Shown one piece after another: positions 3,692-56,428 of a stretch of DNA of 64,000 nt (within the stretch, counting starts at the first letter, position 1; each line of letters opens with the position of its first letter). The notes below the pieces were generated by a model, which worked only from the letters and a program-made list of their open reading frames with translations, did not search any database and was not told the origin of the DNA. The translations under genes were made by a program, and so were the position numbers. The DNA comes from Pseudanabaena sp. PCC 6802 (GTDB lineage: Bacteria; Cyanobacteriota; Cyanobacteriia; Pseudanabaenales; Pseudanabaenaceae), in NCBI RefSeq assembly GCF_000332175.1, contig NZ_KB235914.1, forward strand, positions 3,282,868 to 3,346,867. The letters run 5' to 3'.

Positions 3692-3788
3692 TTTGTCCTA
3701 TCCCCTTACTTTGACCATTCTTGTGAAGCCTTCAGTCAAACTAAATCGGTACTTTTAAGTGTTTTTCTTTCATAGGTCTAACTATATA

Positions 3789-4112
3789 TTAAGCCGCACC
3801 TAGCGGTATAGTACTCATACATCTTAGGCTTTTTACCGCAAAATTGCAGTTTAGTACGCATATTTTAATGTTTTGTTGCATATCTACAACTTAGCGTACG
3901 CATTCTGTATCTTTTAGCGCAGATGTGAAGTTTAGCACGCAGAAATTACATGCTTTACCGCGCTTTTGCGGTTTAGTACGCTCATTTTGTATCTTTTACT
4001 TCAGATGTGAAGTTTAGTACGCAGAAATTACATGCTTTACCGCGCTTTTGCGGTTTAGTACGCTCATTTTGTATCTTTATACTGCAGATGTGCGGTTTAA
4101 CATTCTGAATCT
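3789..4112. repeat. array of ~41-bp hairpin repeats with covarying stems
   Basis: About eight consecutive units. The best copies start at 3954, 3995 and 4036, each exactly 41 bp. Each unit has TTT, a 5-bp stem, a 6-nt loop, the second stem arm, then TTTAGTACGC and a 12-nt tail. The stem differs between units but stays paired: ACCGC/GCGGT alternates with ACTTC/GAAGT, and the last copy has ACTGC/GCGGT with one wobble. Outer copies (3789-3953) are more degenerate, and one has lost pairing. The array fills the space between the first cassette-like gene and the truncated integrase, where an integron carries attI. It is not CRISPR, because no spacers separate the repeats. Confidence 0.8.
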
Positions 4113-4133
4113 GGGCACAATAAGTCATATCCT

Positions 4134-4398
4134 ATGCAAGAAAATTCTTCTACTGTATTTGCCATGACAGAAGTGCAGCCGCCTCGCTTACTTGACCAGG
4201 TGCGTCAAGTTATTCGCCTCAAACATATGAGCATAAAAACCGAAGATTCCTACGTCTACTACATTCGAGACTTTATCCTCTATCACAACAAGAAGCATCC
4301 TAGAGACATGGGAGCACCTGAAATCCGGGCATACCTTTCGCATTTGGCGATCGCAAAAAATGCGGCAGCTTCAACCCAAAATGTCGCACGCAATGCAC
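4134..4398 (+). pseudogene. integron-type tyrosine recombinase, N-terminal fragment
   Basis: The first ~88 residues form the core-binding (SAM-like) domain of a tyrosine recombinase. The stretch PRLLDQVRQVIRLKHMSIKT, then SYVYYIRDFI, HPRDMG and AYLSHLA, resembles integron integrases (IntI) more than XerC/XerD. The reading frame is broken at 4399 by an IS5-family element. Joining the flanks after removing the IS and one ACT target copy restores the frame for only a short stretch (ALFALSQWDL, to a stop near 5434). The whole catalytic domain (R-H-R-Y) is missing, so the enzyme is dead. It faces away from the small minus-strand genes, as intI does relative to its cassettes. Confidence 0.75.
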
Positions 4399-4399
4399 T

Positions 4400-5346
4400 A
4401 GACCTCTTGCAGATTAGGTTGAGGTTGAGTTGCCAAAGAACCCCAAGATAGGAAAATATCAGGACATAGCAATAACGAAAAAGCGTCCTGATGATGAACT
4501 ATATAATAGCGCAAACCCTACCTGCTGCACACTTTAAGCGTCGATTTGGTATCGAGACTAATACGTTCAAAGCAATTGTGAAAGTGCTTAAACCAGAGTG
4601 GCGAGCAACGCCAACACCTGGAGCCAAGCCTAAACTCGGACTAGAAGACCGCATATTGGTTGCCTTCGAGTATTGGCGGGAATATCGCACCTACTTTCAC
4701 ATCGCCACTAGTTGGGGCATCAGCGAGTCTACAGTTTGTCGAATAGTGCATTGGGTAGAGGAGACTTTAATCCGCTCACGTCGCTTTCGACTACCTGGGA
4801 AGCGCCAGTTGGTGCGGGGCTTTGGGATACCTACAGTCGCGACGTTGATGTGACTGAAACTCGCATTGAGCGTCCTAAGCGGCACCAACGTGCCTTTTAT
4901 AGCGGCAAACAGAAAGGGCACACGCTCAAATGTCAACTCATAATTGACGCTCTTACTGGGCAGATTATCTGTACGTTTTTCGGCAAGGGGCGACGGCATG
5001 ATTTCAAGCTGTTCAAAGCTTCTGGCATCCATTTCCATCCTCAAACCGAGAGTTTGCAGGACAAGGGTTATCAAGGCATCCAGAAACTGCATCTCTACTG
5101 CCGCTTACCCCACAAGAAACCGAAAGGTGGTCAGCTTACGCCTGAGCAGAAAGCGTTCAACCGCCAACTTGCGCGCCAACGGGTTGGCATTGAGCATGTT
5201 AATCGCCGCTTGAAGATCTTCCGCATCTTATCTGGACGCTATCGCAATCGTCGTCACCGCTTTGGTTTGCGTTGCAATCTAATTGCTGGTCTCTACAATT
5301 TTGAACGCTCTCAAGGCTCCTCAGTTGGCTAATTTGCAAGAGGTCT
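4400..5346 (+). mobile_element. IS5-family insertion sequence
   Basis: A 947-bp element bounded by inverted repeats AGACCTCTTGCAGATTAG (left, from 4400) and its near-perfect complement at the right end (5329-5346). ACT stands on both sides (4397-4399 and 5347-5349), consistent with a 3-bp target duplication. TA or CTA cannot be excluded because the ends are ambiguous. It carries a DDE transposase in two overlapping frames and interrupts the integron integrase fragment. Confidence 0.85.
4491..5332 (+). CDS. IS5-family DDE transposase in two frames
   Basis: The first frame (4491-4853) encodes the helix-turn-helix half (LGLEDRILVAFEYWREYRTY, then GISESTVCRIVHWVE). The catalytic half runs in the -1 frame to 5332 with VDVTET, LQDKGYQG and GIEHVNRRLK supplying the likely D, D and E residues. 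The switch must occur around 4815-4845. Some IS5 subgroups use two overlapping ORFs joined by programmed -1 frameshifting. A TTTGGGA heptamer lies at 4821, but its phase is not the canonical one, so loss of one base from the G-run at 4815-4819 is an equally good explanation. All catalytic motifs look intact. Confidence 0.8.
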
Positions 5347-5433
5347 ACTGTTTGCATTATCTCAATGGGATTTGTCAAGCGTCCGCCAAACCTTCCAGTT
5401 GTTTTCGCCTGCACGATTGCATCAACATCAAAA

Positions 5434-6084
5434 TTAGATTTCACGATCGTCCTCGAAAAGCTTGAATAAAATTATGCCTGCGACAAAGCCGCTGATGTGG
5501 GCGAGGTAGGCTACCCCCGGTTGACCTGGGTTGGACATCGCCGCATAAACTGTTTGCCCCACTAACCAGATGCCCAGGAAAAATAACGCTGGTATCCTGA
5601 TCGTGGTCAGGATGATGAAGATCGGCACCAGGGTCACAATCTCGGCGCGGGGAAAGCGGACGATATAGGCACCCATCACACCTGCGATCGCACCGCTAGC
5701 CCCAATTAACGGGATGCCAGAGCTAGGTGAAAACATGGATTGGGTGATGGCAGCGATCGCGCCGCAAATCAGGTAAAAAATTAAAAATTTCACGCTACCC
5801 AAACGATCCTCAACGTTATTGCCAAAAATCCACAAAAACCACATATTGCCAATCAAGTGCAACCAACTACCGTGTAGAAACTGCGAGCTTAGTAAAGTAA
5901 TGACCTCGCGGTTTGTAAAGGCAAAAAATTCGCGGGGAATAACTGCCCAAGCGCGCAAAAATTGAACGAGTTGGGGGTTGCTCAAACTAATTTGATGCAG
6001 AAAAACCAGAACGTTAACGGCAATCAGCGCATAGACAACCAGAGCCTGCCGCCGCGTAGGGTTGTCATCATAAAGAGGGATCAT
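5434..6084 (-). CDS. rhomboid family intramembrane serine protease
   Basis: A 216-residue membrane protein with six or so hydrophobic segments. The catalytic Ser lies in GASGAIAG and the catalytic His in AHISGF near the C-terminus, the Ser-His dyad of rhomboids. The N-terminal PLYDDNPTRR motif and the loop with a WLH.IGNMWFLWIFG pattern are typical of bacterial rhomboids. It cleaves single-span substrates within the membrane. Its substrate here is unknown. It is divergent from secA, with 129 bp between the starts, so the two promoters share one intergenic region. Confidence 0.9.
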   Translation of the reverse strand: MIPLYDDNPTRRQALVVYALIAVNVLVFLHQISLSNPQLVQFLRAWAVIPREFFAFTNREVITLLSSQFLHGSWLHLIGNMWFLWIFGNNVEDRLGSVKFLIFYLICGAIAAITQSMFSPSSGIPLIGASGAIAGVMGAYIVRFPRAEIVTLVPIFIILTTIRIPALFFLGIWLVGQTVYAAMSNPGQPGVAYLAHISGFVAGIILFKLFEDDREI

Positions 6085-6213
6085 AAAGGGGGATCGTTAG
6101 TGCATTAGTTACTGTAGTTACTGTGGATTAGGTACTATGGGAGTAGAGCAAATTTTTGTTTAATATTTGTTTGATAACTTATTATTTAATACTCCCTGAT
6201 TTCTACGGTAGCC

Positions 6214-9024
6214 ATGTTAAACCTTCAGTCTTTGATCGGCGATCCCAATAAGCGCAAGCTGGATAAGTTTCGTCCCGATTTAGCTTTGATCAATTCCCTA
6301 GAAGCAGACATTAAAGCTTTAAGCGATGAAGAACTACGTGGTAAAACTAATGAATTTAAGCAGCGTCTGGTGCAAGGTGAAAGCCTGGACGATATTTTAC
6401 CCGAAGCATTTGCCGTAGTCAGAGAGGCGGCTACGCGGGTATTGGGGCTGCGCCACTACGACGTGCAAATGTTGGGCGGCATGACCCTGCATAAGGGCGA
6501 AATCGCGGAAATGAAAACTGGGGAAGGTAAGACCCTGGTTGCCACGCTACCCAGTTATCTTAACGCGCTGACAGGCAAAGGCGTGCACATCGTCACAGTT
6601 AACGACTACCTGGCGCGGCGCGACGCGGAATGGATGGGGCAGGTACACCGCTTTCTCGGCTTAAGCGTCGGGCTAATTCAGCAAGCCATGGAACCCATGG
6701 AACGGCAGCGCAACTATGCCTGCGATATTACCTACGCCACTAACAGCGAATTGGGCTTCGACTACCTGCGCGATAACATGGCAACCACAATGGAAGATGT
6801 GGTGCAGCGCCCGTTTAACTTTTGCGTCATTGACGAGGTTGACTCCGTCCTGATCGACGAAGCGCGAACGCCTTTAATTATTTCCGGTCAGGTCGAGCGC
6901 CCCACGGAAAAATATATGGGTGCGGCGGAGATCGCCAAACAGCTAGAGAAAGAAACGCACTACGAAGTTGACGAAAAACAACGCAACGTCATTCTCAACG
7001 ATGATGGCTTTGAAGCAGCCGAAAAGCTGCTCGGCGTTCAAGATTTATTCGATCGCGACAATCCCTGGGCGCACTATGTCTTTAATGCAATTAAGGCAAA
7101 AGAACTCTTCCTCAAAGACGTGAACTATATCGTGCGCGGCGATGAAGTAATCATCGTCGATGAGTTTACGGGGCGGGTGATGCCCGGTCGTCGTTGGAGC
7201 GACGGTTTGCACCAGGCGATCGAGGCAAAAGAGGGAGTTCCAATTGAGAATGAGACCCAAACCCTGGCTTCGATTACTTACCAAAACTTCTTCCTGCTCT
7301 ATCCTAAACTTGGCGGCATGACCGGAACGGCCAAGACCGAAGAAGCGGAATTCGGCAAGATTTACAATCTGGAAGTCACGACCATGCCCACCAACCGCAA
7401 GAGCGGTCGGGTTGACCTGTCAGACGTAGTTTACAAAACCGAGGATGGTAAATGGCGTTCGGTGGCGCTGGAATGCCAGGAAATGCACGAACTCGGTCGC
7501 CCCGTTCTGGTGGGCACGACCAGCGTGGAAAAGTCCGAGCTGCTGTCGCGGTTATTGACCGAACTGAAGATTCCCCACAACCTGCTCAACGCTAAGCCAG
7601 AGAACGTGGAACGCGAATCGGAGATCGTGGCGCAAGCCGGACGGAAGGGGGCAGTGACGATCGCCACGAATATGGCAGGTCGGGGTACGGATATTATCCT
7701 GGGTGGTAATGCTGACTATATGGCACGCCTGAAGGTGCGGGAATTCTTTATGCCGCAAATCGTGCGACCGGATGACGATGAGGACATGGGGGCAGGACAA
7801 CTGCTATTCCCCAATCGTCCCACTGCCGGTCAGGGGTTTGACCCTAACGGGGCGGGCGGCAAGAAGCGCAAGACATGGAAAGCCTCCGATAGCCTTTTCC
7901 CCTGTCAAATTTCCAATGATGCCAAGGCATTGCTCAAAGAGGCGGTTGACTATGCCGTCAAGACCTTAGGCGCGCAGAGCCTCACCGAACTGGAAGCCGA
8001 TGATATGCTGGCAGTTGCAGTGGAAAAAGCACCCACCGACGATGTGGTAATTCAAAAGCTCCGTGCGGCAGCTACGCAAATCAAGCACGAGTATGAAAGC
8101 CTCACCAGCAAAGAACACGAAGAAGTTGTCTCCCTGGGTGGATTGCATGTCATCGGCACCGAGCGTCACGAGTCCCGCCGCATCGATAACCAGTTGCGCG
8201 GTCGCTGCGGTCGTCAGGGCGACCCCGGTTCCACCCGTTTCTTCCTCAGTCTGGAGGACAACCTGATGCGCATTTTCGCTGGCGATCGCGTTGCCGCCCT
8301 AATGGATGCCTTTAAGGTGGAAGAGGATATGCCCATTAGCTCCGGCTTGTTAACCAGAAGCCTGGAGGGGGCGCAGAAAAAAGTAGAAACCTATTACTAC
8401 GACATCCGCAAGCAGGTATTTGAATACGATGAGGTGATGAACAATCAGCGGCGCGCCATCTATGCCGAGCGGTTTAGGGTGCTGGAGGGGCAGGATCTGC
8501 GTGATCGCGTGATCGAATACGCGGAGCGCACGATGGACGATATCGTCAATGCCTACGTCAATCCAGATTTGCCACCGGAAGAGTGGGATTTGACCAGCAT
8601 GGTGAATAAGGTAAAAGAGTTCGTAAATCTTCTTCAGGATTTAGAGCCAGCACACCTGGACGACATGTTTATGCCAGAGATGCAGGCATTCCTGCGCGAA
8701 GAAGTGCGCCGTGCCTACGAAATCAAGGAAGCTCAAGTCGATAGCCTCTCACCTGGATTGATGCGTCAGGCCGAGCGCTTTTTCATCCTCCAACAAATAG
8801 ATACTCTCTGGCGCGAACACCTGCAAGCCATGGAGAGCTTGCGCGAATCGGTAGGCTTGCGCGGCTACGGCCAGAAAGATCCGTTGATCGAATACAAGAG
8901 CGAAGGCTACGAGTTATTCCTGGGCATGATGACCGATATTCGTCGCAATGTCGTCTATTCTCTGTTCGAGTTCAATCCGCAACCACAACCGCAAACTACG
9001 CAGATAGAAGCTGAGTTTGTTTAG
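6214..9024 (+). CDS. secA: preprotein translocase ATPase SecA
   Basis: The motor that drives unfolded proteins through SecYEG at the plasma and thylakoid membranes. At 936 residues it has the family's usual length. NBD1 shows Walker [12 protein letters not shown] (about residue 103) and [19 protein letters not shown]. The preprotein cross-linking, NBD2 ([32 protein letters not shown]) and helical scaffold regions follow in order. Like other cyanobacterial SecA proteins it has an insert in NBD2 (about 520-610) and lacks the C-terminal zinc-binding SecB-docking motif. The gene is complete and stands alone. Confidence 0.98.
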
Positions 9025-33063: not shown

Positions 33064-33642
33064 ATGCGTCAACTCAAATACTTGGTTGCTTGTACCGTCG
33101 ATCGCTTTATTGCTGGTCGTGATGATTCTTTCGACTTCTTTTTGATGGAAGGCGAACATATGACTGACATAATTCAGGAATTTCCTGAGACCATGCCAGC
33201 GCACCTACACGATCTCCTGGGAATTGCTGCCAATAATGAAAATAAGCATTTTGATACGGTCTTGATGGGGCGCAGAACCTATGAAATCGGTCAAAAGATA
33301 GGAATTACCAACCCCTATCCCCAGATGCAACAATACTTAATCTCTCGCAGTCTACAGGCAAGCCCAGATCCCAATATTAATTTAGTTTCTACCGATCCTG
33401 TCACCCTAGTCCGAGAATTGAAGCAGCAGCCTGGTAAGGATATCTGGCTGTGTGGCGGTGGCAATTTAGCAACAACACTTTTCCCAGCGATCGATGCGAT
33501 GATTCTAAAAGTACATCCAGTCCTGCTGGGTACGGGTATCCCACTGTTGTCTGGTGCGATTAAACCAACCCCACTGGAAATCACCAGCAGCAAAATCTAC
33601 AATAATGGTTGCATGTTATTGCATTACCGCTTGAAACATTGA
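33064..33642 (+). CDS. dihydrofolate reductase family (RibD C-terminal-like) protein
   Basis: 192 residues of the YwjB/YyaP type: start LKYLVACTVDRFIAGRDDSF, then VLMGRRTYEIG, IWLCGGGNLATTLF and HPVLLGTGIPLL. It should bind NADPH in a DHFR-like fold. The substrate is not known, and it is not the housekeeping FolA. Divergent from mutS (139 bp between starts). Confidence 0.85.
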   Translation: MRQLKYLVACTVDRFIAGRDDSFDFFLMEGEHMTDIIQEFPETMPAHLHDLLGIAANNENKHFDTVLMGRRTYEIGQKIGITNPYPQMQQYLISRSLQASPDPNINLVSTDPVTLVRELKQQPGKDIWLCGGGNLATTLFPAIDAMILKVHPVLLGTGIPLLSGAIKPTPLEITSSKIYNNGCMLLHYRLKH

Positions 33643-33740
33643 AACAATGCAATGAACTTTTTAGGGCGTATTTTTGGTGTTTTTTGCACCCATCGATCGA
33701 ATTCTTGGTAGAACGGCAGCAACTTCAGGGATGGAAATCT

Positions 33741-34154
33741 ATGCGTTATCGTAGACTCAGCTACTCCTATACCGGCATTTTTACTGGAATGGGTTCCCCC
33801 TCGCCCACCGCTCCTTGGGGGAGCCGCATGCATGCAAGTTTTGCTCACCCGCAGTGGCACCCCCCTGCCGACCTGCACGAAACCCCCACAGCGTTAATTG
33901 TCAAAGTAGAAATTGCTGGTTTAGCAGATGAAGATTTTGAGATTTGTCTCTATGAAAATGCCCTGACGATCGAAGGGGAGAGAGCGTGGGAAATGCCCGA
34001 GGGAGATCGGCAATATCATGCGGTGAACATTCAATACGGATCGTTTCGTCTAGACGTACCCCTCAAACATAAGATCGATTGCGATCGCGTTCAGGCTCGC
34101 TACGATCGCGGTTTTCTCTACGTCATGCTACCGAAAATGGAGGTGGAGTCGTGA
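33741..34154 (+). CDS. Hsp20/alpha-crystallin small heat-shock protein
   Basis: 137 residues from the ATG at 33741 (GGGATGG upstream). The alpha-crystallin domain covers about 45-133: ETPTALIVKVEIAGL, LTIEGER, YGSFRLDVPLKHKID and DRGFLYVMLPK (last strand). It lacks a normal C-terminal I-x-I extension, so its oligomer assembly may be unusual. It binds unfolding proteins without ATP. The stop TGA overlaps the GTG start of lon (GTGA), so chaperone and protease are translationally coupled. Confidence 0.88.
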   Translation: MRYRRLSYSYTGIFTGMGSPSPTAPWGSRMHASFAHPQWHPPADLHETPTALIVKVEIAGLADEDFEICLYENALTIEGERAWEMPEGDRQYHAVNIQYGSFRLDVPLKHKIDCDRVQARYDRGFLYVMLPKMEVES

Positions 34155-36616
34155 CTCACGCAGGTTCGAGCAATGCTGGAAATAATAACGAGTATATTCC
34201 CGAGATTCCCGACGCGCTTCCGGTTTTACCGCTAATCGATACCGTGGTCGTACCCATGGCAGTAGCTCCCATTGTGGTGGGACACCAGCGCTCGATCGAT
34301 CTAGTAGATGAGGTAATGCGTACCAATCGCCTGTTGGCATTAGTGGCTCAGCGCGATCCGGAAGCACATCCAGCGGGGCCAGACGATATCTACCGCGTCG
34401 GTACCGCCGCCATTATCCACCGACTCCTGCGGTTGCCAGATGGAACCTTACAACTGGTCGTGCAGGGATTAGAACGAATTCGGATTCTAGATTTTTTGCA
34501 GATAGAACCGTTTCTGGTGGCGAGAATTGACAGAGCGCCCGAACGCACGGTGGTAAATATGGAAATAGAAGCCCTGCGCCGTACCCTGGGCGACCTGTTT
34601 CGCAAACTCGTGCCTTTAACAAACGATATTCCCGACGAACTGGCATCTGCTGGCGACAATATCAGCGACCCGCGCATGTTTGCCTATCTGGTGACAGCGA
34701 TGATGCCGATGGAAACTACAGTGCGGCAGGAAGTGTTGGAATTGGATGACACCGCAGATAAACTAAAACGGTTGATTAACTTGATGCAGCAGGAGCTAGC
34801 TGTCCGGGAGTTGCAACAGCAAATTGCTTCTGATGCCCGGGAAAAAATTTCCAAAACTCAACGGGAATATATTTTAAGAGAACAATTAAAGTCGATTCAG
34901 CAAGAACTGGGCGAGGAGGATACCGAGCAAGCCGAAATTCAAGAGTTGCGCCAACAGATGGAAGCAGCCAATCTACCTGCAGAAGCGCACAAAGAAGCCT
35001 TCCGAGAATTATCGCGACTGGAGCGCTTGCCCGCAATATCGCCGGAGTATGGTACGATCCGCACCTATCTCGACTGGATGGTGAGCCTACCCTGGAATGC
35101 CACGACTGGCAGCGCGATCGACCTCGTTTGTGCGGGTCAAATCCTCGATGAAGATCATTATGACTTGGAACGGATCAAAGACCGGATTTTAGAATACTTA
35201 GCGGTCAAAAAACTGAAAGCAGATCGTCAGGCTCAGTCAGGTTTACAGTCTCAATCTCAGCGGGAGACTGAGAATACCGATCGCAAAGAAACTGATAGCA
35301 TGACTGAGAGCATTTTTGATGACAGCCGTCGAGAACCAATCCTGTGTTTTGTGGGACCGCCCGGTGTCGGCAAAACCTCTCTCGGACAGTCCATTGCCCG
35401 CGCCATGGGGCGCAAGTTCGTGCGTATCAGTCTGGGTGGCATTCACGACGAAGCCGAAATTCGCGGCCATCGCCGTACCTATATTGGAGCTTTACCCGGT
35501 CGCCTGATTCACGCCTTGCGACGAGCAGAAACTGCCGATCCCGTGTTTATGTTTGATGAGGTAGATAAGCTAGGCAGAGGCTTTCAAGGCGATCCGGCGG
35601 CTGCACTCTTAGAAGTTCTCGATCCAGCTCAGAATCATGCCTTTGTGGATACTTATCTCAGCGTTCCCTTTGACTTGTCCAGGGTGCTGTTTATCTGCAC
35701 GGCAAACACAATTGAAACTATTCCATCACCGTTACTCGATCGCATGGAGATTTTGAGCCTTTCTGGTTACACGGAAATGGAAAAGCTGCACATTGCCCGT
35801 CGCTATCTGCTGCCCAAACAATTGCGCGCTAACGGTTTGCAGCTGCACGAACTCAAGATTCCCGATGCCGACTTGCAACGTATTATTCGCGAGTATACCC
35901 GTGAAGCGGGAGTACGCAATTTGGAACGGGAAATCGGTACTGTGATTCGCAAAGTGGCTCGCAAAATAGTCGAAGGTGCGACAACCCCAATTACGATTGA
36001 GGCGGAACAGATTCCAGATTACTTGCGACGACCCCGGTTTGAGAATGAAGTGGTGGAACGGATCGATCGCCCTGGCATTGCCACCGGCCTGGCATGGACT
36101 CCCGCAGGTGGAGACGTATTGTTTGTCGAAGCTGCAATGATGGGCGGACAGGAGGAACGGTTAGTACTGACAGGGATGTTGGGGGATGTGATGCGCGAAT
36201 CGGCGCAGGCGGCTCTATCCTACGTGCATTCCAATGCGGAGAAACTCGGTATCGACCCCAAAACCTTTGTGGGTAAAGTGGTACACGTCCACGTACCTGC
36301 AGGGGCAACTCCTAAAGATGGGCCTTCGGCGGGGGTGACGATGGTAGCAGCGATCGCCTCCCTTGCCTCTGGCCGCTTGGTAAGGAACGATGTGGCTATG
36401 ACTGGCGAAATTACGCTGCGCGGGAAAGTGCTACCTGTAGGCGGTATTCGTGAAAAAATGCTGGCTGCCTATCGAGCAGGAGTAAAAACGGTGATTTTGC
36501 CGCAGCGCAACCAACCAGATCTGGAGGACGTGCCCGATGAAGTGCAACGCGACCTGAAGTTTGTGTTTGCAACTGCTGCTGAGGAGGTGTTGGCGGCTGC
36601 CCTGGCACCTGTATGA
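34151..36616 (+). CDS. lon: ATP-dependent Lon protease
   Basis: 821 residues from GTG at 34151, which follows GGAGGTGGAG and overlaps the Hsp20 stop by 4 nt. It degrades misfolded and regulatory proteins in the cytosol. Domains in order: N-terminal LON substrate-binding domain ([14 protein letters not shown] to about 200), coiled coil, AAA+ with Walker [10 protein letters not shown] and [10 protein letters not shown], and the protease domain with catalytic Ser in KDGPSAGV and Lys in [13 protein letters not shown] 45-residue polar insert (about 355-395) precedes Walker A. Lon is absent from many cyanobacteria, so its pairing with hsp20 may be an acquired module. Confidence 0.95.
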
Positions 36617-36918: not shown

Positions 36919-37022
36919 TATAGCCGTAGACAGATCGGTTATTACAGGGGGTGTGGGCGCAGCGCCCACACGCAGGGGTGGAAACCCTGCACCCCGTCCT
37001 AAGCCTATTGGCTATAGCTATA
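36919..37022. repeat. dispersed repeat B, copy 1
   Basis: Begins TATAGCCGTAGACAGATC and ends GGCTATAGCTATA, with an internal GTGTGGGCGCAGCGCCCACAC hairpin and a CAGGGGTGGAAACCCTG hairpin. Other copies are at 42018-42119 and, inverted, at 56330-56428. Minimal forms lie at 55918-55949 and 61494-61515. Confidence 0.85.
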
Positions 37023-37199: not shown

Positions 37200-38198
37200 A
37201 TGAGGATATTAGGAATGGAAGCACCAAACAGGAGCAACCCTAAAGTTCAAGATCGAGATTTTCTACAGATTGTCCTGGCTGAGTCTAACTCAACCATTAG
37301 CGAGCCAATTGTAGCTGAATTAGGCAAAGACCAACATCGGATCGTCAGATGCGCCAACCTTCAAGAGACAAATCGGGCAATGGACAGTCACGTGCCCGAT
37401 CTGTTAATTATTGGCAATTTAGAAGATTCGAGTTGTTTAGAGGTATTTCGCGAGTGCGCGCAAAAATTTCAAAATTTGCCGATAATCTTGCTGTGTCATA
37501 CGCTTGAGGTCAACCAATTTTTCAAGGATTGGGTAGTTGCCAAAGGCGGCTGCGATGTCATGAGCGGTTCCCCTACAAAACTGCATCTACTCAGGCAAGG
37601 GTTGCAAAATTTGATGGGTCGAGACCAGTCTGTCGAACCAGCTCAAGCTGCTCCTGCGCCTGCAAAAATTCAAGAACCTGCTCCACCACCTGCACCTGCA
37701 TCTAAGCCTGCATCGAATCTGCCCAGCCCGCCGCCGCCACTACCAAAACCACCACAAGCGATCGCGCAAAATGCCAAACCTGCACCAAAAGAGCCGGTAA
37801 AAGCTGCCCCAATTCCCACCTCAAGCCCTGGTAAGAGTTCGCGCTTCCAACAAACCTTAACTTATCAACAAACTCTTGCCGCCCTGAATGAAATTTCGGA
37901 AATAAGTCTCAAGTACTTCGGAGGTCTGGTGATTGGTAATTATTGGAAAAAAGCCCATAAAAGCTTAACAGCAGAACATCTCTGGCTGGAATGCTGGTCG
38001 GTCGATCATACTGGGGTAATTTCCTTTGTCAGCCAGGATATCCCGCAAGAAAACCTGACTGAGAGGCAATTCGAGAGTTTACTGCTTTGGGTCAAAGGCT
38101 TTCTTAAGGAATGCGATCGCATCATTGCCGATTACATAGAGCTTTTGCGGCAGAGCAACCCATCCGAACAGGTCAAACAGATTATTACCAATCTCTAA
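37200..38198 (+). CDS. pseudo-receiver protein with Pro-rich linker
   Basis: 332 residues. Residues 20-140 form a receiver-like fold (FLQIVLAESNSTISEPIVAE, then DLLIIGNLEDSS). The phospho-acceptor Asp is replaced by Gly and the Lys motif is lost, so it cannot be phosphorylated in the normal way. A Pro/Ala-rich linker (148-215) follows, then a C-terminal ~115-residue domain I do not recognise. Its receiver is clearly paralogous to that of the next gene, which has the same LAESN and LGN/IGN motifs. It starts the PSII-assembly-like cluster. An in-frame ATG at 37215 is an alternative start. Confidence 0.8.
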   Translation: MRILGMEAPNRSNPKVQDRDFLQIVLAESNSTISEPIVAELGKDQHRIVRCANLQETNRAMDSHVPDLLIIGNLEDSSCLEVFRECAQKFQNLPIILLCHTLEVNQFFKDWVVAKGGCDVMSGSPTKLHLLRQGLQNLMGRDQSVEPAQAAPAPAKIQEPAPPPAPASKPASNLPSPPPPLPKPPQAIAQNAKPAPKEPVKAAPIPTSSPGKSSRFQQTLTYQQTLAALNEISEISLKYFGGLVIGNYWKKAHKSLTAEHLWLECWSVDHTGVISFVSQDIPQENLTERQFESLLLWVKGFLKECDRIIADYIELLRQSNPSEQVKQIITNL

Positions 38199-38379
38199 AC
38201 ACTCATAAGCATAAATTATCATGTAAATGCTACTGCCTTGTAAATATTTGGGTAGTATTACATTCAAGAGTTGTATTTGATTTTTAATATTAACTTTTGT
38301 AATTACCTTACAAGTGCTTGCTGCGATCGGCAATTTCAAATTAATTTAAACCATCAAACAGGGGAGATATTAATAAATT

Positions 38380-39366
38380 ATGACCAAATCTAATCGTACG
38401 GAAGAAAAGTCACACACTGTTTCCTCTGCTGATGCCCGACATAATGCTGCCACATTGAGAATAGTCCTGGCCGAATCCAACCCTGCAATCCATCAGAGAC
38501 TACTAAAAACTATTGAAGGGATTGGCAAGTGGATTGTCTATCCTTGTTCGGAATATACAGAGCTAGTCCAGACCCTCTCATCCGGTGCTGCCGATCTGCT
38601 GATTTTAGGTAATGTCGATAATGGTAGTTGCTTTGAAATCTTCCAACTCTGTAATAAGGAATGGGATAAGTTACCCGTAATTTTAGTATCCCATGAAGTC
38701 GTTATCCCTGAGTTCTACCGTCACGCGCTAGCAGAGAGCAAGGGCTTGGGTGGTGTTGTTAGTAGCGATCCCATCAATCATAACGAACTGGTGCGCGTAA
38801 TTCAGAATGTCACCGGAGTGATTCGCGCCCAGAAACAGGCACAGTCTTTGAATTTCCCCTCGGTTAAAGATGTGGATACTTTTGTCCCGTTACAAATTGA
38901 CAGCCAATTAACAACAGCAGCCACAGGCGAACAATTACTGAACGTATTACTCAGCAATAAAGTTAACGTTCTCAAAGCCTGCGGTGGCAACGGGCGTTGT
39001 GCCACCTGTCATGTCTTTGTGAAAGAGGGGATGGATGCTTTATCGCCTCCTACACAGCAAGAACGTTTGACATTGAGTTTAATGCGGATCGAGCAATCTA
39101 ATGCCCGTCTAGCTTGTCAATGTAAAGTTTTGGATCGCGGCGTTGTTCTAGAAGTTCCCAAGGGGAAATATGTAAATTCAGAAGCAGAATTAGAGTCACT
39201 GGTTGGCAAGAAAGCACAGCAATCTCTCGTGCACCCATTCACAGGGGAAGTGTTGGTGCAGGAAGGAAAACTCATTCTGCGCACTGCTTTGGAAAAAATG
39301 CAAGAACTAAACCGCGAGTTCGAGAAAGAAATGGGAGTTCTATTATCCTTGCACGAAGGTATTTAA
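38380..39366 (+). CDS. pseudo-receiver fused to 2Fe-2S ferredoxin domain
   Basis: 328 residues. Residues 26-145 are a pseudo-receiver: the expected phospho-Asp is Gly77 in DLLILGNVD. Residues 165-262 are a plant/adrenodoxin-like 2Fe-2S ferredoxin with Cys201, Cys207, Cys210 and Cys246 as cluster ligands (C-x5-C-x2-C...C), followed by a ~65-residue tail. Ferredoxin domains of this type occur in the Synechocystis photosystem II assembly operon (Slr0148). The fusion suggests a redox sensor whose output domain no longer uses phosphate. It is followed by a V4R gene after 4 bp, in one operon. Confidence 0.85.
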   Translation: MTKSNRTEEKSHTVSSADARHNAATLRIVLAESNPAIHQRLLKTIEGIGKWIVYPCSEYTELVQTLSSGAADLLILGNVDNGSCFEIFQLCNKEWDKLPVILVSHEVVIPEFYRHALAESKGLGGVVSSDPINHNELVRVIQNVTGVIRAQKQAQSLNFPSVKDVDTFVPLQIDSQLTTAATGEQLLNVLLSNKVNVLKACGGNGRCATCHVFVKEGMDALSPPTQQERLTLSLMRIEQSNARLACQCKVLDRGVVLEVPKGKYVNSEAELESLVGKKAQQSLVHPFTGEVLVQEGKLILRTALEKMQELNREFEKEMGVLLSLHEGI

Positions 39367-39370
39367 AATT

Positions 39371-40093
39371 ATGAAAACCACGAAAGAGATCGTAACTTTT
39401 CAGACTCCTCCAGTTCCCATGCCCTCTGTCTGGAGAGTCTGTCACTACAGCCGATACACCTTCTTCAACTTCGATATGCAGCAAGGTGAGATCTGGGACT
39501 ATCATCAGCAACGCAATATTCTAGCAGGAGAAGAATTCATCGTTTCTCTGCTCAAAGGCTTAGAGCATGAAGTTGGTGAGTCCGCTGGCTGGCTGCTATA
39601 CACGATCGGTCTGAACTGGGGCAAGCAAGATGCGATCGCATTTGAAGAATGGTTGGAGGGGTACTATAAACTCACTCTGCAAACTGCTAATCTCGCCTTT
39701 GCCATGGAGACATGGTGGTGGCCCCTAACCGCCCAAGGTTGGGGAACGTGGAAGTTAGACCTGCAATCACTCAAAGATGGCTTCATTTTTGTCGATCTGT
39801 TTGACTCAGCCGTGGCTAAAACGTTAGGTAATATCGGTAAGCCTGTATGTCACCTTTATGCTGGCCTGTTAGCAGGATTCTTTAGCGTAGTCTTTAATAA
39901 GAACCTGAGCAGCACTGAAGTGCAATGTTACTCTATGGGTAATGATTTCTGTCGTTTTCTCATTGGTTCAGAAAAACGCATTCGAGCCACCGAGTTTTGG
40001 ATTTCTTCCGGCGCAACAGCAGCGGATATTGAGAACCGCTTCCTCGCAGAAGAAATTCCCGCTGAAGTCGAACTACTAGTCAAAGAAGGTTAG
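39371..40093 (+). CDS. V4R domain protein (4-vinyl reductase-like)
   Basis: 240 residues. The V4R fold covers about 55-205, with the family's GLNWGKQ near residue 78, a Trp-rich strand (METWWWPL), HLYAGLLAGFFS and the last Cys motif VQCYSMGNDFCRFLIGS. V4R domains bind small hydrocarbons or tetrapyrroles, as in BchJ and the related Slr0144/Slr0147 of Synechocystis. It probably handles chlorophyll or bilin precursors at photosystem assembly. Spacing is 4 bp from the ferredoxin fusion and 2 bp to the next gene. Confidence 0.85.
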   Translation: MKTTKEIVTFQTPPVPMPSVWRVCHYSRYTFFNFDMQQGEIWDYHQQRNILAGEEFIVSLLKGLEHEVGESAGWLLYTIGLNWGKQDAIAFEEWLEGYYKLTLQTANLAFAMETWWWPLTAQGWGTWKLDLQSLKDGFIFVDLFDSAVAKTLGNIGKPVCHLYAGLLAGFFSVVFNKNLSSTEVQCYSMGNDFCRFLIGSEKRIRATEFWISSGATAADIENRFLAEEIPAEVELLVKEG

Positions 40094-40095
40094 AC

Positions 40096-40707
40096 ATGAA
40101 AAGCGATCGCGGCTCGACCAAAAAAATAAAAACCGATTTCCTCAGCCTGTTTCTGAGTTGGCTAAGAGGAATTGGGAGCAAACTGAGGCGCATGGTGAGG
40201 CGCTTGCTTTACCCAAATCGGGGTAGACGCGCCCAGATGGTGGCACATACGCCTGACATTAAAATTGCTCCATTAATGGGAGCAGAGAAGATTCATCAAA
40301 TGGAATCTTTAACTGTTGGGAGTTTGATGACAAAAGTAGAGTGGCAGGCTCCCCAAAAGATTAGCGCTGAAATACCTCTAGAAACTCTAGAAGCAACACC
40401 TACCCGTAAAAGTATCCCTGGATTTGACGAGTCGGAATCTCTAACGGTGGGTAATGCACGCGCAAGCTTGCAGCTAACTACACCTCGCCCTGTTACGGAG
40501 GAAATGCCTGAGCCTGACTCAAAAGTGGCAGTTTCTTCAATCCAGGCGGTATATCCTTCCGATCGCATGCCTCCAATTATGGGAACAGAACAATTCCCTC
40601 GCCGACGCTCTTTAACAGTTGGCAATCTACTGGAGACCGTCCAGTGGAAGACTCTCCAGTCACCTTCTCAAACCTCTACTATCGAAGACAAGATTAATTG
40701 GGATTAG
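40096..40707 (+). CDS. basic protein with three SLTVG repeats
   Basis: 203 residues, family not recognised. The N-terminal 45 residues are strongly basic with an amphipathic stretch (FLSLFLSWLRGIGSKLRR) that could bind membrane or phycobilisome. Three repeated units follow, each with SLTVG (71, 115, 182) and then a [VL]xW/L strand (TKVEWQAP, ASLQLTTP, ETVQWKTL). In two units a (P)xxMGxExxxxx segment precedes. The repeats look like short linear binding motifs on a disordered chain, suggesting a linker or scaffold that holds three copies of a partner. It lies inside the V4R/phycobilisome-like operon, and its start is 2 bp after the V4R stop. Confidence 0.75.
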   Translation: MKSDRGSTKKIKTDFLSLFLSWLRGIGSKLRRMVRRLLYPNRGRRAQMVAHTPDIKIAPLMGAEKIHQMESLTVGSLMTKVEWQAPQKISAEIPLETLEATPTRKSIPGFDESESLTVGNARASLQLTTPRPVTEEMPEPDSKVAVSSIQAVYPSDRMPPIMGTEQFPRRRSLTVGNLLETVQWKTLQSPSQTSTIEDKINWD

Positions 40708-40786
40708 AAGTCTAGATTGTAGCGCCAGCTTAGACCAACTGGAGATACAAGTTTTACAGATATCGCAAATTTAAGGAGAATAATTC

Positions 40787-41251
40787 ATGATTACTTTATT
40801 AGAAAATGTCCTCGAGCGAGCGGATGGTAATTACGTAAGTCCTGAGGATCTTCAGCTTTTGGATAAGGCACTTTCTTCTTGGAAGGCTCGTAAAGCGGCA
40901 TATAATGCCTTGCAAGAGAAGGAACCTGACATTATTAGCGCTGCTGTGACAATGATGAAAAATGGCGATCGCTTCGAATCGAAACCAATGGATAGTCTGG
41001 GGGTAGATCGCTGCCAAAGAGATATGACTTTGGGATTGCGTTGCTGCGCTCTTGCCATGCTGTTACAAGATGAAGAAATGCTGAAAGATAGAGTACTGTA
41101 CTGGCAACAAAATATTTTCCGTGCCATGCAACTGAACTATCAGGGCTACAAGTTTCTTTGGCAAGCAGTCAAATCTCAACTCCCCGGCGAGCAGGCGGCA
41201 TTCTTTAGCCCCTACATGAAGCTTGCCCATGAAATGATGGCCGCCGAGTAA
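40787..41251 (+). CDS. phycobilisome/allophycocyanin-like globin
   Basis: 154 residues, all helical, of the phycobilisome protein family but divergent (no typical N-terminal ApcA/B hairpin signature). The C-x-R-D motif around the chromophore cysteine is kept: Cys76 in DRCQRDM corresponds to the bilin-binding Cys84 of phycobiliproteins, so it may bind a bilin. It resembles the phycobilisome-like Slr0146 of the Synechocystis PSII assembly operon. An AAGGAG lies upstream. It sits between the SLTVG-repeat protein and the second V4R gene. Confidence 0.8.
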   Translation: MITLLENVLERADGNYVSPEDLQLLDKALSSWKARKAAYNALQEKEPDIISAAVTMMKNGDRFESKPMDSLGVDRCQRDMTLGLRCCALAMLLQDEEMLKDRVLYWQQNIFRAMQLNYQGYKFLWQAVKSQLPGEQAAFFSPYMKLAHEMMAAE

Positions 41252-41276
41252 ATATTAACTGACAAGGAGAAAATCG

Positions 41277-41921
41277 ATGGAATTATCCTCCCCACAGAAG
41301 GAGTCAATTCCTTCTAGTTACTTTAACCCAAGAGCTTATGTCAAGTCCAACCCCGCCACAGGCTTGTTAGCTAGCCGCCAGGGCAAGCGCTTGATCGCTT
41401 TACCGGAATTACTAATTAGTAGCATTCACGACACCTTGCACGAAGAAGCTGGAGAAGCAGCTCCCATCGCTTTCTATACATTTGGCTTCAGTTGGGGCAA
41501 GTCTTTCTACGAGAGAATGCGCAAAGAATTGGAAGTCTATAACGGCTGCTCCATTGACGAGATGAATGCTCCTGAATTTTTTGCGACTTTGCAACAGCTC
41601 TGGGGCGTGCATGGCTTAGGTCAAATTACCGTGGATTTCTCTTTTGCTAAACAGGGGCTTTTGCTGGTGACAATTGAGAACTCAGGTATATCCAAAGCGG
41701 AGGCGCGCTCTGTATCTAAATCCTTCAGCATAGAAGCGGGATTTCTTGGAGGTTGGTTTTCAGCCCAAACTCAGCGCGGTTTGGGTGCTTGCGCCACCGA
41801 CTGGGATGTAGAGCTTCGCCGAACGCAGTATTTAGTTGGAGCAAAATCGCAAATCGAACAAATTGAGTCGAAGTTTATTAGTCAAGGCAAGAGAACGCAA
41901 GCGATTATGGAAAATATTTAA
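41277..41921 (+). CDS. second V4R domain protein
   Basis: 214 residues, shorter than the first V4R protein (39371-40093). The V4R core has FYTFGFSWGKSFYERM (about 62-77) and EAGFLGGWFSAQTQRGLGACATDWD, with Cys in the same C-terminal place. The two V4R proteins may form a heterodimer. AAGGAG precedes the ATG. It ends the operon; repeat DNA follows. Confidence 0.82.
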   Translation: MELSSPQKESIPSSYFNPRAYVKSNPATGLLASRQGKRLIALPELLISSIHDTLHEEAGEAAPIAFYTFGFSWGKSFYERMRKELEVYNGCSIDEMNAPEFFATLQQLWGVHGLGQITVDFSFAKQGLLLVTIENSGISKAEARSVSKSFSIEAGFLGGWFSAQTQRGLGACATDWDVELRRTQYLVGAKSQIEQIESKFISQGKRTQAIMENI

Positions 41922-42017: not shown

Positions 42018-42119
42018 TATAGCTGTAGACAGATCTGTTAGGACAGGGGGTGTGGGGGCTGCGCCCCACGCAGGGGTCCACCCCTGCACCCCGTCCTAAG
42101 CCTATTGGCTATAGCTATA
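42018..42119. repeat. dispersed repeat B, copy 2
   Basis: TATAGCTGTAGACAGATCTG start and GCCTATTGGCTATAGCTATA end. It is about 90 percent identical to copy 1 at 36919. Confidence 0.85.
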
Positions 42120-56329: not shown

Positions 56330-56428
56330 TATAGCTATAGCCAACAGGCTTAGGACGGGGTGCAGGGGTGGAACCCCTGCGTGGGGGCTGCGCCCCCACC
56401 TGTCCTAACAGATCTGTCTATGGCTATA
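56330..56428. repeat. dispersed repeat B, copy 3 (inverted)
   Basis: TATAGCTATAGCCAACAGGC to AGATCTGTCTATGGCTATA, inverted relative to the copies at 36919 and 42018. It lies just upstream of the Coq4-like gene and can be misread as an N-terminal extension of it. Confidence 0.85.

Follow-up and report, generated by a model that had tools for sequence, protein, structure and literature searches.

Pseudo-receivers and a receiver-ferredoxin fusion in a paralogous ferredoxin/V4R/globin gene cluster of Pseudanabaena sp. PCC 6802

Two groups of described gene clusters most resemble the locus analyzed here, a six-gene cluster of the cyanobacterium Pseudanabaena sp. PCC 6802. The Synechocystis slr0144-slr0152 (pap) operon encodes V4R proteins of two clades (V4R-A and V4R-B), a small protein, a globin and an adrenodoxin-like [2Fe-2S] ferredoxin, Fed5 (Slr0148) (PMC4284462). 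Fed5 is a phosphoprotein, and its phosphorylation depends on SpkG (PMC11863333). The cyanobacterial clusters associated with BBAG globins and pre-PcyA (Rockwell et al. 2023) likewise combine two V4R proteins with an Fe-S protein and a bilin globin that has a CXRD motif (PMC10151467). BBAGs with this motif undergo self-assembly with bilins and harvest light poorly, and the function of the globins is not yet known; the same study already reports loss and duplication in cyanobacteria, and its main text does not use the word "receiver" (PMC10151467).

The six open reading frames (ORFs) of our cluster occupy positions 37200-41921 of a 64,000-nucleotide stretch (the window) of the 5.6-Mb, phycobilisome-bearing genome. 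All lie on the + strand, separated in order by 181, 4, 2, 79, and 25 nt. As in the pap and BBAG clusters, an Fe-S ferredoxin is grouped with two V4R proteins and a phycobilisome-family globin, with ORF6 counted as V4R through homology to V4R-B only. A preliminary description of this DNA, made from the letters alone, had named these coordinates, the close packing and the families, and with the same proviso for ORF6 the ORF calls and Pfam bear it out. The window cluster differs from the pap operon in having pseudo-receivers and a receiver-ferredoxin fusion in place of the free ferredoxin, and its globin at the slr0146 position carries CXRD. It also lacks the plant-type ferredoxin, TPR and Ser/Thr kinase genes; no counterparts of slr0150-0152 were found downstream of ORF6. 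Unlike the BBAG/pre-PcyA clusters, it carries no bilin reductase or heme oxygenase gene. By operon position, Fed5 would belong to the same ferredoxin family as the ferredoxin of ORF2 and offers a useful parallel for a regulated ferredoxin. The reading we favor, at a probability of about 0.55, is that the lineage of the window cluster (type 2, below) is a signaling offshoot of the Fe-S/V4R/bilin-globin cluster, in which the pseudo-receivers would act as adaptors for a ferredoxin/globin/V4R complex.

Two lineages of ferredoxin/V4R/globin clusters

The same genome holds a second, receiver-less cluster on the - strand (C5:3632742-3635613; positions 3743-6614 of locus L006). Its gene order, a ferredoxin without receiver followed by V4R-A, small protein, globin, and V4R-B, is that of the window cluster, and comparable receiver-less clusters occur in many families. 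At loci L124 and L131 the order is V4R-A, globin, V4R-B, ferredoxin, globin, and TPR, in agreement with the published pap layout (PMC4284462). We refer to receiver-less, pap-type clusters as type 1; their pap identity is assigned through L124 and L131, TPR gene included, as syntenic proxies standing in for the Synechocystis sequences. Type 2 denotes the lineage of the window cluster; it occurs in the family of the window organism and also in two further families (G233 and G095).

Quick trees, built without bootstraps and with some long branches, part type 1 from type 2 for both V4R-A and V4R-B (Shimodaira-Hasegawa-like approximate likelihood ratio test, SH-aLRT, 100 each), and the window genes fall in type 2. 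In the ferredoxin and globin trees, type 1 lies on one side of a branch with SH-aLRT of 87 and 93, respectively. Judged from these sequences, the window carries an ancient paralogous cluster, separate from the pap-type lineage. The homology to pap-type clusters proposed in the preliminary description is thus upheld through the proxies L124 and L131, with ferredoxin, two V4R genes, globin, and small protein in shared order. Its label of photosystem-assembly cluster is not: the window holds the type-2 paralogue and a separate pap-type copy exists in the genome. A role of the window copy in photosystem II (PSII) assembly is not supported.

Type 2 is marked by an ORF1-type pseudo-receiver gene that immediately precedes the gene for the ferredoxin or fusion. 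This gene is found in every type-2 cluster examined, across three families, except the fused-type loci L064 of G005 and L068 of G002; at L066 of G026, an EAL gene lies between it and the fusion. The second pseudo-receiver, fused to the ferredoxin, is confined to one type-2 subclade. The novelty claimed earlier therefore holds for the fusion, which is rare (five loci in 4 of 390 genomes of the class), and not for the preceding pseudo-receiver gene, which is general in type-2 clusters. The type-2 globins carry CXRD or a near form of it (CKGD in G095). Type-2 clusters that do not belong to the fusion subclade have an additional, diverged ferredoxin gene (145-191 residues) ahead of the pseudo-receiver gene, as seen at L067, L073-L077, L079, and L080.

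Pseudo-receivers and the fused ferredoxin

ORF1 (37200-38198, 332 residues) comprises a pseudo-receiver (37257-37631, residues 20-144), a Pro-rich linker and a conserved C-terminal domain, CDOM (37848-38195, residues 217-332). ORF2 (38380-39366, 328 residues) comprises a second pseudo-receiver (38452-38817, residues 25-146) fused to a [2Fe-2S] ferredoxin. In Pfam, the ORF1 receiver matches Response_reg below threshold (E = 0.057), as does the ORF2-type receiver, matched in a relative. Foldseek against structural models recovers the receiver fold at E values of ~1e-6 for ORF1 and ~1e-5 for ORF2. Furthermore, the ORF1 model aligns with solved receivers over residues 21-143 with VIA Z scores of up to 18.0, and its AlphaFold pLDDT is mostly 85-95. 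The models thus indicate that both domains are true receiver folds with alternating β-strands and α-helices. Of the profile matches anticipated in the preliminary description, those to Fer2, V4R, and Phycobilisome are significant, and the receivers emerge from Foldseek and VIA instead. The two receivers share 31% identity (E 1.5e-15) and are, by sequence, paralogous, as had been suggested.

We aligned 14 ORF1-type and five ORF2-type receivers with ordinary response regulators, including three encoded next to type-2 clusters. The phospho-Asp position is Gly in 19 of 19 pseudo-receivers (Gly72 in the residue table of ORF1; Gly77 of ORF2, codon GGT at 38608-38610), and Gly77, already singled out in the preliminary description, is consequently a fixed feature of the family. 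The second acidic residue is replaced by Ser, Tyr, or Met and the Lys is lost too; one acidic residue is retained. The ordinary response regulators adjoining type-2 clusters, in contrast, retain Asp, Thr, and Lys. From these substitutions, we conclude that the pseudo-receivers are not phosphorylatable in the canonical way. How bacterial pseudo-receivers are switched has been described as a mystery (PMC12632262). Quinones are bound by the pseudo-receivers of cyanobacterial CikA and KaiA, and cysteine redox chemistry controls RitR and HP1021, which also lack the aspartate (PMC12632262). These proteins resemble the window pair in having receiver folds without the phospho-Asp, and some are redox-controlled; they use quinone binding or disulfides, whereas the candidate redox center in the window is a fused [2Fe-2S] ferredoxin. 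The main text of that review mentions neither ferredoxin nor iron-sulfur (PMC12632262).

The ferredoxin domain of ORF2 (38884-39165; Pfam Fer2, 3.7e-9) matches the adrenodoxin/ISC type. Its ligands C201, C207, C210, and C246 (CX5CX2CXnC) are invariant in all five fusions, and the domain is predicted to be an adrenodoxin/ISC-type [2Fe-2S] ferredoxin. The fusions are found within one family, once each in the window genome, G026, and G002 and twice in G005; no further full-length match to ORF2 was present among the 390 class genomes, and a contig scan with ORF2 gave only distant ferredoxin matches. The fusions at the other loci are 54-64% identical to the window protein. Mean pairwise identity among the fusions is 58% for the receiver, 43% for the linker and 26% for the N-terminal tail; the difference between receiver and tail indicates that the receiver part is under constraint. 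The C-terminal extension of the ferredoxin (39166-39309, residues 263-310) is 71-88% identical between pairs of fusions and is also present in the unfused paralogue. Conservation at five loci led us to reject the fusion as a product of chance or frame-shift. The parts are of known kinds, and their combination appears to be undescribed in the open-access literature that was searched, where no relevant paper on a receiver-ferredoxin fusion was found.

CDOM (~116 residues) is absent from the preliminary description of ORF1. It is modeled as helical with a pLDDT of ~95. Sequence searches of Pfam, NCBIfam, and PHROG gave no match and those of PDB no significant one, and in the fold searches the hits all went to the receiver part. 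CDOM is present in many cyanobacterial proteins behind other N-termini that resemble Roadblock/LC7 or consist of pentapeptide repeats; the Roadblock/LC7 likeness is a possible one, based on a single protein whose Pfam match is below threshold (0.022). The genes of several CDOM proteins adjoin a type-1 ferredoxin gene. Given these other N-termini and this proximity, the pseudo-receiver seems to have taken the place of another N-terminal module on an adaptor already native to the gene neighborhood. At the type-1 loci L112-L120, L126, and L127, an unannotated gene directly upstream of the ferredoxin encodes a possible Roadblock/LC7-like N-terminus followed by CDOM; at L124, the CDOM gene has a pentapeptide-repeat N-terminus and is sited upstream of V4R-A.

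Signaling neighbors and the remaining genes

The signaling module proposed in the preliminary description finds support in the neighborhoods of the relatives. In G026, a sensor kinase, a REC/AraC regulator, the ORF1 homologue, and an EAL gene precede the fusion, V4R-A, small protein, globin, and V4R-B. The first locus of G005 runs kinase, Uma2-type gene, REC/AraC, EAL, fusion, and the remaining cluster genes; the second consists only of kinase, REC/AraC, ORF1 homologue, and fusion. EAL is followed by the fusion in G002. Among the genomes with free ferredoxin, G006 has a REC-EAL gene directly downstream, G003 has a kinase at its type-2 cluster, and in G004 the cluster is preceded by a GAF/PAS kinase and a REC-OmpR-Hpt-REC regulator, which has the domain order known for RcaC. 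The neighboring kinases were read by eye for bilin-type GAF domains, and no clear chromophore motif was seen. The stand-alone EAL family, whose catalytic motifs (E, N, E, DD, K, E, Q) are present, is found in five of the seven subclade genomes: at the cluster in G026, G005, and G002, and elsewhere in the genomes of G003 and G004. The 31 other genomes of the family have no member of it; other hits there are 34-38% identical and lie within longer proteins.

The remaining cluster genes begin with ORF3 (39371-40093), which is placed in V4R clade A by its tree and contains C186-x7-C194 (Pfam V4R, 8.2e-20). ORF6 (41277-41921) is a diverged clade B homologue that is missed by the Pfam V4R model, lacks the second V4R cysteine and is assigned by its tree and by a phmmer match of 1.2e-37 to the other V4R-B of the genome. 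Between V4R-A and globin lies the small protein ORF4 (40096-40707), in which two of three SLTVG-type repeats have the full SLTVGxLxxxVxW form. In type 1 and type 2 alike, small proteins in this position carry two to four copies of a motif of approximately (L)(S/T)V-x-x-(F/L)(F/L)-x-x-(I/V/N)-x-W (ORF4; L006 4974-5309; L119; L131), which may be a linear docking motif. ORF5 (40787-41251; Pfam Phycobilisome, 6.4e-16), a BBAG-like globin by alignment and tree, keeps the bilin-attachment motif CXRD (DRCQRDM); at the matching position, the type-1 globin of the same genome is without it.

Copies of a ~100-bp dispersed repeat (strand unassigned) stand on both sides of the cluster, at 36919-37022 and 42018-42119. 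A further copy in the window is at 56330-56365 on the - strand, and the core recurs at several other genome sites; the element may be MITE-like (a miniature inverted-repeat transposable element) or an ordinary intergenic repeat. Scans of the cluster for promoters and terminators gave results near chance. Upstream, at 33609-36616, a small heat-shock-protein-like ORF is followed by a Lon-like protease gene, both named by eye from the sequence, and a phosphoglycerate-kinase-like ORF lies 3′ of ORF6 on the opposite strand. Elsewhere in the genome (G000), contig C3 (46,895 bases) holds seven phycobiliprotein-family genes as well as response-regulator matches, and may be a plasmid.

Proposed role and alternatives

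If the cluster is a signaling offshoot, its six products would form one complex with input from the iron-sulfur cluster of the ferredoxin, from a bilin on the globin, or from both. The [2Fe-2S] cluster would report the redox state of electron carriers, and the globin/V4R pair would bind a bilin or other tetrapyrrole. The receiver folds would be docking modules that relay this state through contacts between proteins, without phosphate, the likely partners in the relatives being the EAL cyclic di-GMP (c-di-GMP) phosphodiesterase and two-component proteins. That a redox change would alter the binding face of the receiver is the most speculative step, though a redox switch of the receiver by the ferredoxin is a plausible candidate. 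The full scheme, with a complex that senses both redox state and bilin, whose tethered ferredoxin switches a non-phosphorylatable receiver and which controls c-di-GMP turnover and transcription in the relatives, we consider rather unlikely in that complete form.

Several observations weigh against the signaling reading. Kinase, regulator, and EAL genes are all absent beside the window copy, and neither a stand-alone EAL nor a full-length REC-AraC homologue was found in the window genome, so that the link to signaling rests on the relatives. These in turn share descent, and their neighborhoods are not independent events. Three subclade members (G003, G004, and G006) have an unfused ferredoxin, and the fusion is therefore not essential; the ferredoxin tree nests all three among the fusions (SH-aLRT 82-87). 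Finally, the AlphaFold model of the ferredoxin half of ORF2 is poor (pLDDT < 50), gives no domain arrangement and was not used.

The cluster could instead be a second pap cluster, with receivers that serve as scaffold or docking domains and no part in signaling. It shares homology and gene order with pap-type clusters, and slr0144-0152 mutants grow slower and have lower PSII activity (PMC9145668). That PSII role may lie with slr0150-0152 (PMC10151467), which have no counterpart here. The type-2 genes moreover form an old separate lineage in a genome that retains its own type-1 copy, and their neighbors in the relatives are signaling rather than photosystem genes, all of which makes a second pap cluster improbable. 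We also doubt that the cluster serves the carriage, storage, or reduction of bilins or other tetrapyrroles, with electrons donated by the ferredoxin, pigment held by V4R and globin, and receivers as dimerization or regulatory add-ons. The Fe-S/V4R/globin set does descend from clusters with bilin reductases and heme oxygenase (PMC10151467) and ORF5 retains CXRD, but neither enzyme was found among the cluster genes, and two pseudo-receivers and the kinase and EAL neighbors would be left unexplained. Sensing of a quinone or another small molecule by both receivers, after the example of CikA and KaiA (PMC12632262), would leave the ferredoxin merely to tether them to the electron-transport chain. 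The degenerate site is the same in both receivers, yet the redox center is present only in ORF2, and we regard this analogy as very unlikely to hold.

Under the signaling reading, the window cluster probably senses redox state or pigment, to judge from the signaling genes around type 2 in the relatives, rather than building photosystems. If so, a photosynthesis-linked cluster would have been recruited for signaling, and a fused [2Fe-2S] ferredoxin would add another route of pseudo-receiver control, outside the coverage of the existing review (PMC12632262). The conserved pseudo-receiver-ferredoxin set beside a c-di-GMP phosphodiesterase in the relatives makes both the switching of pseudo-receivers and the function of BBAGs directly testable.

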